Shown: one piece after another, positions 20,567-25,965 of the stretch
Numbering within the stretch: the stretch's first letter is position 1
How the letters are laid out: every line of letters starts with the position of its first letter
Assembly (NCBI RefSeq): GCF_000724625.1
Contig: NZ_CP007139.1
Location: 2,728,001-2,792,000, forward strand
Source: Fimbriimonas ginsengisoli Gsoil 348
Lineage (GTDB): Bacteria; Armatimonadota; Fimbriimonadia; Fimbriimonadales; Fimbriimonadaceae
Reading direction: 5' to 3'
DNA: 64,000 nt
The notes under the pieces: model-generated
Databases searched by the model: none
The model's input: the letters and a program-made list of their open reading frames with translations, nothing else
What the model was told of the DNA's origin: nothing
Program-made: the position numbers and the translations under genes

Positions 20567-20602
20567 TGGCTTTACCGCGACATCAACGTCGCGGTAAAGC
20601 CA
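20567..20602 (-). terminator. Perfect 15-bp hairpin downstream of the tail-anchored protein gene
   Basis: TGGCTTTACCGCGAC (20567-20581) and GTCGCGGTAAAGCCA (20588-20602) pair perfectly around a six-base loop and extend a few more pairs with one wobble. It lies 14 bases past the stop of the gene at 20616 and before the MFS start. No T-run follows on the minus strand. Confidence 0.6.
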
Positions 20603-20615
20603 GTCGATCCAAGAA

Positions 20616-21686
20616 CTAGGTGGATTTGTGGGGACGCCGTCGACGGATTTGCAGCGCAAGGCCCGAACCGACGAGCAGTAATCCGGCGCCCACGACTGCA
20701 TAGGTCCCCCAGTTCTGGTTGCCTCTCCCCCCGCCCGTAACTTGCGCTTTTTGAAGCTTCTCTAGGTCGACCATGGACGGTAGGTTATCTTGCAGGCGGT
20801 AGTACACCTGGTACTTAGTATCCGATCCAAGTCGCGAGTCCACTATTTTGACTCCGTTCGCGAGAACGTCATGGTACGACCAGTCTTTGCTCTGATCGAC
20901 CTTTTCGAGTTCGTAAAGCTCGCGCTGTTTAGGACGCTTACCCATGTAGCGCAGAACCTCTACTCTTTCCGGCCGGCCCTGCTTGTCTGCATCCTTCACC
21001 ACGTACGTGGCCATAAGCACGCGATGGTCGCCACCACCGCTCTGCATATAAAGGTTTCCGCCGAGGAGGTAGTGACCTGCCTGGTCCAGGCGTAAGTCGA
21101 TCCAGATGGGAGATCCTGCTTTTACCGAGATATCCTGGTACTGATGTAACTCCCCGTCGACGATCTTGGAGCTTATCTGTTTGCCAGGGATTGGTATCCC
21201 TCCTAGAAAGATTGCGTCCGCCGGGTTGTTCAGGCCATTTCCCATGTCTCCCTTTGCCACGTGGCCGGCCTCATCCTGAGTAAGGGGCTTTGAAAAGGTT
21301 TGATCGTCTTTGACCAAATAGGCAACCGTTTGGGATTTTCCCGTCGAAAGACTGGGCGCTATCGTTTCGACGTATCGGCCCCACTTGCCGACGGAGAGCA
21401 CGGTCCTGCCGGTCGTGGTGAAACCGTCCTTTTGGCGCTGAAACTGGGGACGAAGCAGCTTTCGATTCTCGGCCGCTTCTTCGGGATTCATCGGGTCCTG
21501 TTCCGAGACCGACTTCATGAGCGCCTCGACCGCTTTGTCGACGTTATAATCCGGCTTTGGCAGTACTGTCAAAGTCGTCCTATAGACGTACGATTGAGCT
21601 GCCGAAAGGGAGGAACTGCCAAGCAGCCCGAGGCCGACGACGATCGTTATCGGGCCTCGAGCGATTGAAAACGGCTTGGAGATCAT
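20616..21686 (-). CDS. Secreted protein with C-terminal membrane anchor, unknown function
   Basis: 356 residues: signal peptide (cleavage near LSAAQS), an extracytoplasmic domain of about 290 residues rich in beta strands, then a C-terminal membrane segment (YAVVGAGLLLVGSGLALQI) ended by RRRRPHKST, an anchor or sorting-signal layout. The LYMQSGGGDHRV and LRYMGKRP style strands could belong to a LolA/RseB-like fold, but that is a guess. It has no conserved Cys. It is the last gene of a tight operon (4 bases after the Cys-rich gene, itself 10 bases after the DUF1573-like gene), opposite the VKOR-thioredoxin unit. It may present or receive the folded Cys-rich proteins at the cell surface. Confidence 0.75.
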   Translation of the reverse strand: MISKPFSIARGPITIVVGLGLLGSSSLSAAQSYVYRTTLTVLPKPDYNVDKAVEALMKSVSEQDPMNPEEAAENRKLLRPQFQRQKDGFTTTGRTVLSVGKWGRYVETIAPSLSTGKSQTVAYLVKDDQTFSKPLTQDEAGHVAKGDMGNGLNNPADAIFLGGIPIPGKQISSKIVDGELHQYQDISVKAGSPIWIDLRLDQAGHYLLGGNLYMQSGGGDHRVLMATYVVKDADKQGRPERVEVLRYMGKRPKQRELYELEKVDQSKDWSYHDVLANGVKIVDSRLGSDTKYQVYYRLQDNLPSMVDLEKLQKAQVTGGGRGNQNWGTYAVVGAGLLLVGSGLALQIRRRRPHKST

Positions 21687-21690
21687 CCGA

Positions 21691-22047
21691 TTAGCAGCGC
21701 GACTTGACCATCGTCACCGTCGAATCGGTGCCCGAACATCCGCAGCCGAAACTGGACAGTGTGCACGTACCGGTCCGCACTGTGACCGTAGTGTTTCTTG
21801 GCTTTACCGCGCACCACCACGGAAGCAGTGAATCGCACTTGGCAGCATCCCAGGTGTACATCGTGCAGTCTTGACCGTTGCAAGGGCTGGGTGCGATGGA
21901 GCATCCACCGGATTGAGTCGTGTGGCTCGCGCAACCGTTCGGGTACGCGCAAGTGGCGGCCGTGTTGGGCGATGCAAGCAGCAAAGTCGGGCTAAGGATG
22001 AGCGAGATGCCCATCAACATAAGTGCCATAGGTGCGACATTCTTCAT
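21691..22047 (-). CDS. Secreted cysteine-rich protein (118 aa)
   Basis: The ATG at 22047 is preceded by GAGGTTC. A signal peptide of about 26 residues (MKNVAPMALMLMGISLIL, cleavage near LLASPN) is followed by a mature part of about 92 residues with eleven cysteines, in clusters such as CAYPNGC, CSIAPSPCNGQDC and GCGCSG. I recognise no named family. So many cysteines in an exported protein imply disulfide bonds, and the divergent unit encodes a VKOR-thioredoxin fusion that could make them. Odd number of cysteines: one may stay free or be used for linkage. Middle gene of the 20616-22528 operon. Confidence 0.75.
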   Translation of the reverse strand: MKNVAPMALMLMGISLILSPTLLLASPNTAATCAYPNGCASHTTQSGGCSIAPSPCNGQDCTMYTWDAAKCDSLLPWWCAVKPRNTTVTVRTGTCTLSSFGCGCSGTDSTVTMVKSRC

Positions 22048-22057
22048 TTATAGAACC

Positions 22058-22528
22058 TCATTGGATCTGATACGGGATTTCCTTGACAAACGTAATCTGG
22101 TCGGCTCCATCGCTCACGCGAACGTGGACCGTGCCGATGTGGTGGCCGGGGTTTTGATTGGTGAAGTGAACGGGAAAAGCCACTTCGATCGAAGTGAGCG
22201 GCGCTACTTTTCTTAGCGTGTTAGAGTCGGCCGTGCAGCCACCTAGCACGGGCGGCGTGACGACATCGACCGGCCGAAGGTGTGGATTCCAAATCCTTAC
22301 CTTGACCTCGGACGGCTTATTGACGACCCCAAGATCCCCCGGATTGACCCCGAGGAAAGCGATCGGCAATTGCTTTGAACCACCCCAGCAAAGAACAGCG
22401 AGGCCCGTCAACAGAAGCAGAACCGGGACACGGCGAAGAGCCGCGCGTTTGAATTGACCGGTCTGCCCGGCTGGCCCAGTGTCCTCACTCTGTTTGTGGG
22501 TCAATGTGCTAAACATCGTTTTCGTCAT
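22058..22528 (-). CDS. Membrane-anchored DUF1573-like protein
   Basis: 156 residues from the ATG at 22528; a longer GTG start at 22567 is possible and neither has a strong ribosome site. A basic cytoplasmic head is followed by one membrane segment (VPVLLLLTGLAVLCW) and an Ig-like domain of about 100 residues (LGVVNKPSEVKVRIWN, VVTPPVLGGCTAD, VAFPVHFTNQNPG). The Gly-Cys-Thr before the turn is the usual DUF1573 mark. DUF1573 proteins are exported or anchored and of unknown function, but often occur in loci with VKOR-type membrane proteins. First gene of the leftward operon, divergent from the Cys-peptide/VKOR unit by 115 bases. Confidence 0.75.
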   Translation of the reverse strand: MTKTMFSTLTHKQSEDTGPAGQTGQFKRAALRRVPVLLLLTGLAVLCWGGSKQLPIAFLGVNPGDLGVVNKPSEVKVRIWNPHLRPVDVVTPPVLGGCTADSNTLRKVAPLTSIEVAFPVHFTNQNPGHHIGTVHVRVSDGADQITFVKEIPYQIQ

Positions 22529-22643
22529 ATGCAGCCAACGCCGCAATCTTTCTCTGAAGAATAACACACATACGAAGATTTTAGGAAAATTATTGTAAAA
22601 GTCGTTGTAGACTGATTCGTGGCGTAATGCCTAAAGAGTTCAC

Positions 22644-22817
22644 ATGAAAAGATTCGCCGTTTGTTTTATGGTTTTGCTTGGAATCGCTGCGGCCGTGGCG
22701 CCCACATTGGCTTCCGCGACGACCACCGACGAGTGTGGAGGATGCGCTGATGGTACTGTCTGCGCTTCCGGAGAGTGCGCCGCGCCATGCCCTGTCGATC
22801 CAGTTGATCCGGCGTAG
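22644..22817 (+). CDS. Small secreted cysteine-rich peptide (57 aa)
   Basis: ATG at 22644, with AAAGAG a few bases upstream, opens MKRFAVCFMVLLGIAAAVAP, a signal peptide ending near LASATT. The mature part is about 33 residues with five cysteines in DECGGCADGTVCASGEC and AAPC, then PVDPVDPA. It is too short for most gene finders but has a coherent signal peptide, stop and context: 29 bases before the VKOR-thioredoxin gene. I infer a disulfide-stapled exported peptide whose folding depends on the neighbour. No homologue is known to me, and it could be a bacteriocin-like, structural or signalling peptide. Confidence 0.68.
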   Translation: MKRFAVCFMVLLGIAAAVAPTLASATTTDECGGCADGTVCASGECAAPCPVDPVDPA

Positions 22818-22846
22818 GCACGACGCTGCTCCGTAAAATATCCAGA

Positions 22847-24001
22847 ATGACAGGGAGCAACTTGACGTCGCCCGATCAAAATCGGGCGACGATGGTACTT
22901 GCTTTCTGCGGCGTCTATGTAGGCGGGGTCCTCGGTCTATTTAGTTCGGGGCAAATCGAGCTGCCATGCGGATCGAAGTTCGACTGTGCCCGCGTGCTGG
23001 ATTCGCCGGTCGCTCGTCCAGGCGGGATACCTCTTTCGTACTTTGGGATCGCCTGCTACGTAGTTCTGGCTTTTATCGCCCTCGCGCGTAGCCTAAGTGG
23101 GCCCGCCGCATACCCGCGGCTCAGAGGTGCGGGCATCGCGCTCTCGCTCGGGGGCGCCGCCGCCAGCATTTCCCTCACCCTCTATTCAATCTTTGTCCTC
23201 CACGGGTTGTGCGCATGGTGCTTGTCCAATGCAGTAATCATGTGTTTCGTTGCGACGACTACGTGGATGCTTCCCCGAACTTTTGCGCGCGACCGCCTGT
23301 CCGTTCCGCTCTTCGCGTTGCTGACGGTGGGGGTCGCCACCGGACTCACGTATTCGGTACATCGCTGGAAAGCCGCCGAAACTCCGATCAACTTGGCCGC
23401 TCTGGCGCAGACAACCGCCCAGGAACTGTGTCCGGAGGACGCCATCCGAGCGGGTAATCGGAGCGGAAGCACTGCGATCGTCGCTTTTATCGATTTCTAC
23501 TGTTCCGCTTGCCGCCGCTCGCTGCCCCGTCTGGAGAAAATTGCTGCCGATCATCAAGCTGCCCTGATCATCCGGGAGAAGCCACTCGCCGACGGTGGAC
23601 CTGCGGTCGAGGCTGCCGAATGGGTCGAGGTTGCCAACGGGAGAGGAGTGGGATTTAAGTTTCTCTCAGCCTCGGCAAGCATCTCTCCGGCGCCGGATTC
23701 GCGAAGCGAGTTCGAGAAGATCCTTAGCGATGCGGGTGGCACTCGAAAGCCGCCGAACGATGCTGAGTTGGGAGCCGCGAGGAAGCGCCTCAAACGAGAT
23801 GCGCAATTATGCGCCCGACTAAAAATCCAACGAACTCCGACCGTTCTCTTGGTAAGGCCGGGCGTCGCCCCGATTCGAGTAAAGCTGGCAAACCTCGAAG
23901 CCGAACTGAGCCGCGACAAGTTAGCTTCGTTTCGGGGTCATCTGGAGGGGTTGCACGTACTTTCGATCCTACATCGAAAACGGAACGGCGTTCGTGTATG
24001 A
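22847..24001 (+). CDS. VKOR-thioredoxin (DsbA-like) fusion, disulfide-forming enzyme
   Basis: 384 residues. Residues about 15-150 form the four-helix VKOR domain with the loop cysteines Cys41/Cys47 (LPCGSKFDC) and the quinone-facing CxxC Cys122/Cys125 (CAWC). A fifth membrane helix (near 160-178) leads to a periplasmic thioredoxin-fold domain with CSAC (Cys219/Cys222) and a cis-Pro region RTPTVLL near residue 340. Such fusions do the job of DsbB plus DsbA: they oxidise exported thiols and pass electrons to quinone. The domain between CSAC and the cis-Pro is long and helical, as in DsbA-type proteins. It directly follows the Cys-rich peptide gene and faces an operon with an eleven-Cys protein, its probable clients. 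Confidence 0.93.
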   Translation: MTGSNLTSPDQNRATMVLAFCGVYVGGVLGLFSSGQIELPCGSKFDCARVLDSPVARPGGIPLSYFGIACYVVLAFIALARSLSGPAAYPRLRGAGIALSLGGAAASISLTLYSIFVLHGLCAWCLSNAVIMCFVATTTWMLPRTFARDRLSVPLFALLTVGVATGLTYSVHRWKAAETPINLAALAQTTAQELCPEDAIRAGNRSGSTAIVAFIDFYCSACRRSLPRLEKIAADHQAALIIREKPLADGGPAVEAAEWVEVANGRGVGFKFLSASASISPAPDSRSEFEKILSDAGGTRKPPNDAELGAARKRLKRDAQLCARLKIQRTPTVLLVRPGVAPIRVKLANLEAELSRDKLASFRGHLEGLHVLSILHRKRNGVRV

Positions 24002-24092: not shown

Positions 24093-24857
24093 ATGATCAC
24101 GATAACTCAGGGCAAAATCGCGGGCTTAACGCCTCGTTGGGCGCGCTTCCCTGGGTTCTCGCTACTGTTCGACAACCCGATTTCCGCCTATCGGGAGAAT
24201 GCGGGCGTCGAGACACTGGCATGCGACGTCGACAACGATTCGCAACTCGGGTTCTATCGGCAGGCGAACCTCGGGCTGCAGTCGTTGTCTCCCGACCGAC
24301 TCCTCCAGACCTACGGGTTTTGCGCTCTGCCTTCACCTTCGTATCACGTCACCGCATTTGACGTGGCCAACGTGGCCGACCTCGTTCGGTGCCACTCCGA
24401 GATCCGCGACGGACTACGGACCTTGCTCGACCAGCTACCCTCCCCCCATGCCTTCTCGGCAGACCTTCTCTGCCGCGCGGAGGAGAATGAGGTTGCGCAA
24501 TCCGAGTGGAATCTGACCTTTAGTTACGGCGAACTGTGTCAATGGGGCGGAGTGATGGCCATTCGTTTATCGCCGGTGGAGGTCGACGTTTTCGCTCGAT
24601 TCGTTGAGGCAAGGGCAATCCTAAGCCGCGGTTACTTGGCCCAATTCGGGCTCGGCGCCTCGGAGGCATTCACTCCCCACGTTTCGCTCGGCTACTTTAT
24701 GAACAGGGAAGGTGCGGAGCTTGCGCGTTCCCGAGTGACCTCCTGGAACGAGGCCCTTCAAGGTTTCGTAGGCGAATCGAAGCTTAGCTTTCGGTCAGCT
24801 TCTCTGTACGGATTTACCGACATGGCAACGTTTTTCAGAACTCCTCGCGCGATCTGA
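24093..24857 (+). CDS. 2H-phosphoesterase-like protein
   Basis: 254 residues, no signal peptide. Two histidine motifs of the 2H superfamily are visible: YHVTAF with His85 and PHVSLGYF with His196, about 110 residues apart, each H-x-T/S-hydrophobic. In this superfamily (2',5' RNA ligase/ThpR, cyclic phosphodiesterases) the two motifs build one active site that handles cyclic or 2',5' phosphates of nucleotides or RNA. No further subfamily can be named. It lies downstream of the VKOR gene in the same direction with 91 bases between, probably independent of it. Confidence 0.72.
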   Translation: MITITQGKIAGLTPRWARFPGFSLLFDNPISAYRENAGVETLACDVDNDSQLGFYRQANLGLQSLSPDRLLQTYGFCALPSPSYHVTAFDVANVADLVRCHSEIRDGLRTLLDQLPSPHAFSADLLCRAEENEVAQSEWNLTFSYGELCQWGGVMAIRLSPVEVDVFARFVEARAILSRGYLAQFGLGASEAFTPHVSLGYFMNREGAELARSRVTSWNEALQGFVGESKLSFRSASLYGFTDMATFFRTPRAI

Positions 24858-25056
24858 AGACTTCCCCGGTACCTGCCAAAACCCCGCCCCACAGAATATA
24901 GGCGAGGGCGATTGCTCTACGGCAATATTGCGTAGCTAAACCCTTCGCCATTCTTGCGTTTGCTCTGACGCAATCGGCAACCCTTACTGTTTTCCTTAAT
25001 TCACCGCAAATGATCTCGGCACATAATGACATGGCCCTATTGAGGAGCTAACCATT

Positions 25057-25965
25057 ATGAAACGGGCTTTTACCCTTATCGAGCTGCTTGTTGTGATCGC
25101 GATCATCGCGATCCTTGCCGCGATTCTGTTCCCGGTTTTTGCCCAAGCGAAGCTGGCTGCCAAAAAGACCGCCGCTCTAAACAGCGTCAAAGAGATCGGG
25201 CTCGGCATGAATCTCTACGTCGGCGACTGGGACGACACTACTCCGATCGTGTTCTCCATTAACGGACAGGGGTCGGTCGACGTGTACCAGACGATGCAGC
25301 CATACATCAAGAATATGGACCTGTTCTTTAGCTCCGAGTGGACGCAGAAAAATGGCGCTTCGGTGGGTGGAGGCAGCGCGAGCTGCGACAATACGAAGAC
25401 CCCCGACGGATACTTCGTACCGACCGGCGACAATGCGAAGAGATGCATCTCTTTCGGTTACAACTGGGGATTCGGAGTTTGGGCCGGCGGCGCACTGGTG
25501 GGGCCGGAGCAAGCTTGGTCGAATGGACGCGTTACCTCCGGTATCAGCATGACCGCGGTCGACGAGCCGACCAAGCTCGCTGCGTTCGGTGACGAATACA
25601 ACGGCCGGCGCTACACAATCAGCGCTATAGGTTCGGACCTCGAATACTACACCGGACCCAAGAAGAACACGTCGCTCCGGTACGGCGGGAGTTTCAACTT
25701 CAGCTTCGTCGACGGCCACGCCAAGGCGATGCGGGTCAACGGGTACACGTTCAATCCGGCCGCGGCCATTCCCGGTGAGGGTTATGTGATGATGCCGGCG
25801 GACAAATCGATTTGGCACAACTTCTGGTGTTCCAGCGAGAGCGGTACCGTCAAGCCCAGCAATCTGCCGGGCATGAGTGGCCTGCCGGATATGCCATGCG
25901 GCCAGTTCATCGATGTGACCATGTCGGGCGGACTCGGCATCCCCGTCGTGCCCTGGACGAACTAA
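25057..25965 (+). CDS. Type II secretion/type IV pseudopilin-like protein, DUF1559-like
   Basis: 302 residues with a classic prepilin leader: [16 protein letters not shown], where cleavage would leave Phe at +1 and Glu at +5. The helix continues into [12 protein letters not shown], a sequence typical of the many pseudopilins of Armatimonadota. The large C-terminal domain has a [17 protein letters not shown] motif, seen in DUF1559/H-X9-DG-type prepilin-like proteins. The ribosome site GAGGAG is 11 bases before the ATG. Such proteins are numerous in these bacteria and are presumably assembled or displayed on the cell surface. The gene is single and ends in a strong terminator. Confidence 0.9.

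Follow-up and report, generated by a model that had tools for sequence, protein, structure and literature searches.

Dedicated thiol oxidases that come with their own clients are already a known kind of system. In the sublancin cluster of Bacillus subtilis, the disulfide machinery BdbA/BdbB is encoded together with a small disulfide peptide, and the cluster also has an ABC transporter, a glycosyltransferase and an immunity protein. Another example, DsbL/DsbI, was reportedly described by Grimshaw in 2008. According to an excerpt of PMC6067686, DsbL/DsbI of uropathogenic Escherichia coli supplements the housekeeping system with an additional thiol-oxidase pair that has a client to itself, arylsulfate sulfotransferase. 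Fusions of vitamin K epoxide reductase (VKOR) to a DsbA domain occur as general enzymes in Synechococcus and Clostridium sp., and a section of PMC12453122 reports that E. coli dsb mutants regain disulfide formation with the Clostridium sp. fusion. Here we analyzed a locus of Fimbriimonas ginsengisoli Gsoil 348 that lies in a stretch of 64,000 nucleotides (NZ_CP007139.1, positions 2,728,001 to 2,792,000; hereafter the window). At this locus, leftward genes for a DUF1573-like protein, a Cys-rich exported protein (CYS) and a secreted protein with a C-terminal membrane anchor (TA) are divergent from the genes for a 57-aa exported peptide and a VKOR fusion (Table 1).

The locus resembles DsbL/DsbI in that an extra oxidase with a candidate client of its own is encoded alongside a housekeeping oxidase. 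However, DsbL/DsbI consists of a DsbB-type enzyme with a large enzyme client, whereas the window encodes a VKOR fusion, a small ten-Cys protein and a LolA-like partner. With BdbA/BdbB the locus shares the joint encoding of disulfide machinery and a small Cys-rich product, but the window cluster yielded no ABC transporter, no glycosyltransferase and no immunity protein. The domain fusion itself is identical to that of the Synechococcus and Clostridium sp. enzymes; unlike these, the window VKOR is an extra copy beside CYS and TA genes. The original prediction for this DNA, made from its letters, took the locus for a self-contained oxidative-folding and display system with dedicated client peptides and knew of no named system with this gene set. 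In agreement with the latter point, nothing named matched TA or CYS. We found no paper joining vitamin K epoxide reductase with DUF1573 or Fimbriimonas with VKOR, and none on 'NVEALA', and the papers on LolA and VKOR were unrelated by title; among other titles, the Fimbriimonas genome paper alone was relevant. Within the literature searched, therefore, neither the gene set nor its two unnamed families nor the LolA-like partner with a membrane anchor appears to have been described.

DUF1573-Like, CYS and TA Genes Form a Cluster That Recurs in Armatimonadota

The DUF1573-like, CYS and TA genes form a conserved cluster that recurs in Armatimonadota, the phylum covered by our survey. When the window TA was used as a single protein, matches at E 0.1 came from 12 of the order's 113 genomes; three of these, weak matches in G011, G009 and G075 (L111-L113), were dropped because the profile detected no TA gene there. 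A TA profile matched 32 of the 291 genomes of the phylum, and a scan of the collection with a narrower TA alignment gave 5 loci. The neighborhoods that we fetched comprised 38 loci holding 47 TA genes. An ORF (open reading frame) with the ten-Cys framework described below lay directly upstream of 27 of the 47 TA genes. Further, a DUF1573-like gene was near TA in 22 of the 38 loci and a prepilin-like gene was present within 3.5 kb in 16.

A CYS profile matched 39 places in 19 of the 291 genomes, and 18 of these 19 were also TA genomes (hypergeometric 4e-19, a value that ignores kinship and comes from a profile built from TA neighbors). At 27 of the 39 places, a TA match lay downstream within 1.7 kb. 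By our reading of the list, 18 of the 39 were members of the model, and 10 of the 21 others had TA downstream. Tandem CYS-TA arrays were detected in G179 and G183, with 5 TA genes at L167:4555-13240 and 4 at L169:15-7179.

Genes for a sigma-70 region 4 protein, an O-antigen-ligase (Wzy_C) family protein and a pseudopilin lay beside the L167 and L169 arrays. Lnt-like genes (apolipoprotein N-acyltransferase family) were located near TA at L194, where Pfam confirmed the assignment, and at L195, L197 and L198, where it was made by eye; this is suggestive beside a LolA-like protein.

Extra VKOR-Thioredoxin Genes Recur Beside Cys-Rich Exported Genes

The window VKOR proved to be fused to a DsbA-like domain, as originally predicted. 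It scored 59.9 bits against PF07884 (cut-off 27.5), its C-terminal domain resembled DsbA-like chains (3gyk, E 1.1e-4; 4xvw, E 0.0015), and the cysteines of the loop (CGSKFDC), the membrane (CAWC) and the thioredoxin domain (CSAC) were all kept. The score against PF13462 (20 bits) was slightly under the cut-off of 23.2. The protein was divergent among the sampled VKORs, with a top identity of 28% over aligned columns.

To compare VKOR neighborhoods, we used a sample of 81 listed loci, of which 77 were examined; L048, L063, L091 and L185 were dropped because no VKOR gene was called. Copies were ranked as first or second by Pfam bits per genome, so that the extra copies L058, L110, L177 and L193 count as first. 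Exported ORFs with at least five Cys were present within 2.5 kb of 15 of 29 second-copy VKORs vs. 5 of 48 first copies, where one match (L074) looks like an antisense ORF. When tiny peptides were included, the counts were 19 of 29 and 6 of 48 (Fisher p 2.5e-6, uncorrected for phylogeny and with several spurious tiny matches, namely L047, L052, L188 and the 49-aa one of L174). A position-based control with 13 genes and 2 matches was too small for use. Gene calling and signal-peptide calls were home-made heuristics, and the second gene caller gave exported Cys-rich ORFs a bonus. The ORFs counted at first copies, second copies and ordinary VKOR loci were scanned without this bonus, yet overlaps were judged by the genes of the bonus caller. 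In the trees, the VKORs linked to CYS fell outside the housekeeping clades and had long branches, with weak support.

The original prediction proposed a search of relatives for co-occurrence and would have been refuted had these lacked Cys-rich genes by their VKOR fusions. Such genes do sit by extra VKOR fusions there, with the five-gene layout in one genome and close variants in several genera, so that the prediction withstood this check. G084 (L110) repeats the window layout, with a TA of 348 aa, a CYS of 122 aa with 11 Cys, a DUF1573-like protein of 122 aa, a 41-aa peptide and a divergent VKOR. G049 (L161) encodes DUF1573-like, CYS, TA, a 39-aa peptide and VKOR. Further extra VKORs beside exported Cys-rich and TA-like genes were found in G009 (L042), G011 (L060), G042 (L174), G049 (L177), G092 (L186) and G093 (L184). 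At G008 (L058) and G011 (L061), a tiny peptide and a TA-like gene lay by the extra VKOR, with no callable CYS ORF.

Other kinds of VKOR locus were also observed. In six genomes within the genus (L036, L038, L040, L044, L047, and L051), a second class of extra VKOR follows 3' of a pilus secretin operon and has no Cys-rich exported genes near it. Another type (L069, L083, L086, L178, L179, L188, and L193) is located beside an exported peptide of 69-77 aa with about six Cys; most of these loci also encode a protein of 530-680 aa, which in L086 had no Pfam match. At L080:4580-4951, an exported 123-aa protein with 12 Cys, whose Cys pattern is unlike that of CYS, lies beside a pseudopilin gene and divergent from a housekeeping VKOR.

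Protein Families of the Cluster

CYS proteins share a near-invariant framework of ten Cys, spaced about C-11-C-5/6-C-3/6-C-9-C-7-C-15-C-7-C-1-C-17-C. The window CYS has this framework and one extra Cys toward the N-terminal side. The remaining positions are free to vary, identity to the window member being 14-23%. Of the 26 CYS-type proteins listed, 17 have an even number of Cys beyond residue 28. CYS had no sequence match in Pfam, NCBIfam or PDB, and the ten-Cys pattern had 0 matches in control loci (475 kb in six frames). Codon evidence was available for a 76-aa six-Cys peptide in G058/G061, with 9 synonymous vs. 2 non-synonymous differences.

Exported ORFs of 36-67 aa recur beside CYS-linked VKORs or at the head of CYS-TA genes. 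All 13 listed tiny peptides from outside the window had one Cys past the signal, although the selection rule asked for at least one Cys and did not require exactly one. The window 57-aa peptide deviates from the others by its five Cys past the signal. By eye, its end (CPVDPVDPA) resembles CPVDEVTVQ of L058 and CPIDPVEPTVVQ of L189. The peptide aligned with CYS at 37% identity over 60 residues (E about 5e-4, composition correction off); we do not claim homology, because the similarity is mostly that of signal peptide and Cys composition.

TA had no sequence match in Pfam or NCBIfam, and PDB sequences gave nothing convincing (best E 0.096). No Pfam or NCBIfam family was common to the 40 TA-type proteins scanned; no Pfam family matched more than one member and none was of LolA type, and the window TA itself gave 0 LolA-type Pfam matches. 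Structure prediction was carried out for the TA homolog L194 of bacterium HR15 (G033:C64; E 2.6e-7 by the window-based profile). Its model, built from four sequences, had a pLDDT of 72.9 and a pTM of 0.70. Foldseek placed LolA first (E 2.2e-7), and the top 20 rows of VIA-align were LolB, LolA, DUF1329 and related proteins (Z 12.8 to 9.5, with 166-204 aligned residues). Of the two carriers, LolA is soluble, while LolB is a lipoprotein of the outer membrane. The predicted fold of L194 (Z up to 12.8) thus likens TA to these carriers, from which TA differs by its C-terminal membrane helix, the lack of a Pfam match and its Cys-rich partner gene. Because this homolog was modeled with the LolA/LolB fold, TA is best read as a predicted LolA-like domain that the C-terminal helix anchors in the inner membrane. 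Its proposed role in display had been a guess from this anchor, and the sorting-tail models remained below the NCBIfam cut-offs for the window TA (GPS-CTERM, 15.2 vs. 28; LPXTG, 11.1 vs. 15.9; MYXO-CTERM, 10.7 vs. 20). Among nine TA-like proteins near extra VKORs, six passed the inclusion threshold when these nine sequences were searched against the profile, and L042, L174 and L058 failed. Some of the TA-like proteins are related to the profile distantly at best, or not demonstrably. A profile-profile comparison aligned the conserved 'G..V.D.R' region with 88% probability.

The window DUF1573-like protein is homologous to the family of operon-position members (E 5.2e-13), two of seven of which matched PF07610, but it is itself below the threshold of that model, with no match up to E 10 and a single Cys at the motif. 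A table in PMC9312934 lists, for other bacteria, a DUF1573 selenoprotein with UGC in place of CGC. Because of this form, a redox role of the CGC motif is plausible, by analogy, in the relatives.

The Window Locus

The F. ginsengisoli genome that holds the window is a single contig of 5,231,762 bases, consistent with the one chromosome of 5.23 Mb given in part of PMC4072686. All five predicted ORFs were found in place (Table 1), and the predicted leftward intergenic gaps of 4 bases (TA/CYS) and 10 bases (CYS/DUF1573-like) were borne out. For the DUF1573-like gene, the candidate starts are GTG at 22567 or an internal ATG at 22516 or about 22528.

Table 1. Features of the VKOR-CYS-TA locus (positions in the window).
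Feature	Position	Strand	Description
TA	20616..21686	-	356 aa; signal peptide, putative LolA-like periplasmic domain (from a homolog), C-terminal membrane helix, RRRR tail
CYS	21691..22047	-	exported, 118 aa, 11 Cys; member of the ten-Cys-framework family
DUF1573-like Ig-type protein	22058..22567	-	N-terminal membrane anchor; start may be 22516
57-aa exported peptide	22644..22817	+	6 Cys, 5 past the signal; ~30 bases ahead of the VKOR gene
VKOR fused to DsbA-like thioredoxin domain	22847..24001	+	PF07884 score; catalytic Cys complete
Hairpin, 15-bp stem	20567..20602	-	directly 3' of the TA stop codon; z -5.9

Profiles made from relatives, with the window sequences excluded, each picked a sole match among the 1,211 six-frame segments of the window: TA (E 1.1e-25), DUF1573-like (E 5.2e-13) and CYS (E 2.5e-7). 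Exported ORFs with at least five Cys were scarce, with 2 in the 557 kb of 50 ordinary VKOR neighborhoods that remained after CYS-linked loci were set aside; in the 64-kb window, CYS and the 57-aa ORF were the only ones. These two results confirmed that the window genes are not grouped by chance. The hairpin is a possible end of the leftward operon; it has no T-run, was absent from the terminator scan and had no second match anywhere in the genome. The region 3' of the window VKOR (24093-25965) encodes a weakly 2'-5' RNA ligase-like protein and a prepilin-type protein, which are not clearly in the module.

Discussion

About half of our confidence goes to a reading of the locus as a module dedicated to oxidative folding and hand-off. 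It draws on the conserved leftward cluster, the fixed ten-Cys framework of CYS, the fold of the TA homolog and the occurrence of extra VKOR-thioredoxins, with complete catalytic cysteines in the window, by such genes in several genera. An extra oxidase is encoded with a Cys-rich exported gene while a housekeeping copy is present, as indicated by the two VKORs of the genome and the association counts. CYS would be exported by Sec, and the VKOR-thioredoxin would form its five disulfides and pass the electrons to quinone. The membrane-held, LolA-like TA may then bind CYS, or a hydrophobic group on CYS, and either retain it or hand it over, with the cell surface or the exterior as the probable destination. 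Another envelope partner could be the DUF1573-like protein with its membrane anchor; the tiny peptide could act as another small thiol client or as a partner linked through a mixed disulfide. For the steps beyond the enzyme chemistry (the interaction of CYS, TA and VKOR, the export route and a final role in display, secretion or antagonism), we infer from gene neighborhood and fold; the "dedicated client" of the original prediction likewise came from neighborhood.

Several observations weigh against this module. The genome also has a housekeeping VKOR, at 4438768, beside a gene with a GGVDSSV motif, which we take to be MnmA-like. VKOR adjoined just 3 of the 38 profile-defined TA loci, most CYS/TA clusters have no neighboring VKOR, and in G179 and G183, which carry CYS-TA arrays, the single VKOR is located elsewhere. 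The system is therefore not self-contained, as had been predicted, and VKOR is a facultative dedicated oxidase of the cluster, not an essential part. As single queries, the window TA and CYS had no match among the remaining 19 genomes of the genus, and the TA-like proteins of the genus loci L042 and L058 had no significant sequence similarity to the TA profile. The model of the window TA itself was poor (pLDDT 50.2), and the fold comparison was made with L194. In the window DUF1573-like protein, moreover, the CGC motif has lost its initial Cys (GGCT, against CGCT in many relatives); because just GGC is kept, a CxC redox role appears unlikely for this protein. As for the two small ORFs themselves, our home-made hexamer gene caller chose an overlapping 51-aa ORF over the 118-aa CYS ORF, and the 57-aa ORF scored barely positive despite the bonus for exported Cys-rich ORFs. 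By its sequence homology, the CYS ORF is rescued from this result; the 57-aa ORF is putatively translated, by analogy only.

The same cluster could serve antagonism, CYS being a secreted, disulfide-stabilized, bacteriocin-like protein, TA its membrane-anchored immunity protein or carrier, and VKOR the enzyme that forms the disulfides, as in a sublancin-type system. A small, exported, fast-diverging Cys-rich protein paired directly with a membrane protein would suit this explanation, as would the tandem arrays of G179 and G183 with their 4-5 TA genes, and dedicated oxidases are known, going by titles, from bacteriocin clusters (sublancin/BdbA/BdbB). However, the Cys-rich proteins matched no bacteriocin family, since the one match among 39 members (lactococcin_972, E 0.053) is noise. 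Neither a transporter nor a protease is present in the window cluster, the five window proteins had no match in PADLOC, and the LolA-like fold is not known to be an immunity fold. We consider antagonism unlikely. A pilus or fiber adhesin, in which CYS would form part of the structure or the tip and be assembled together with the prepilin-like proteins that the cluster often encodes, seems to us no more probable. It would account for the prepilin-like genes near TA (16 of 38 loci), which in L103, L106 and L145 lie directly between the DUF1573-like and CYS genes, and for the extra VKORs at pilus operons in six loci. Proximity is weak evidence here because pilin-like genes are very common in the genome, for which part of PMC4072686 gives 79 pseudopilin genes, and the nearest prepilin-like gene in the window (25057) is outside the operon, past another gene.

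That VKOR is a general second oxidase that landed by a Cys-rich operon is very improbable in our view. The small share of TA loci with a VKOR beside them (3 of 38) and the distance of the window VKOR from all others sampled (top identity 28%) would be expected of such a coincidence, but Cys-rich neighbors are enriched at second-copy VKORs, and the layout is repeated in G084, in G049 and, without a profile-significant TA, in G009.

CYS-TA might be a so far undescribed polymorphic export system of Armatimonadota; we propose this tentatively, as an idea with somewhat less than even chances. It would comprise five-disulfide proteins that can be exchanged for one another, each paired with a LolA-like partner of its own that is anchored in the membrane. 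A sigma-70-type regulator would sometimes lie next to them, and dedicated VKOR-thioredoxins and single-Cys micro-peptides would have been recruited repeatedly as the folding line.

The locus contributes two protein families for which neither Pfam nor NCBIfam has a model, together with an unusual protein, the putative membrane-anchored LolA-like TA. The fixed Cys framework with free loops is of interest for stable protein scaffolds. Further, the loci offer a natural set of candidate VKOR-client pairs in a phylum that has seen few experiments, and they raise the questions of which cysteines the dedicated VKOR oxidizes and why the ten-Cys protein travels with a LolA-like partner.

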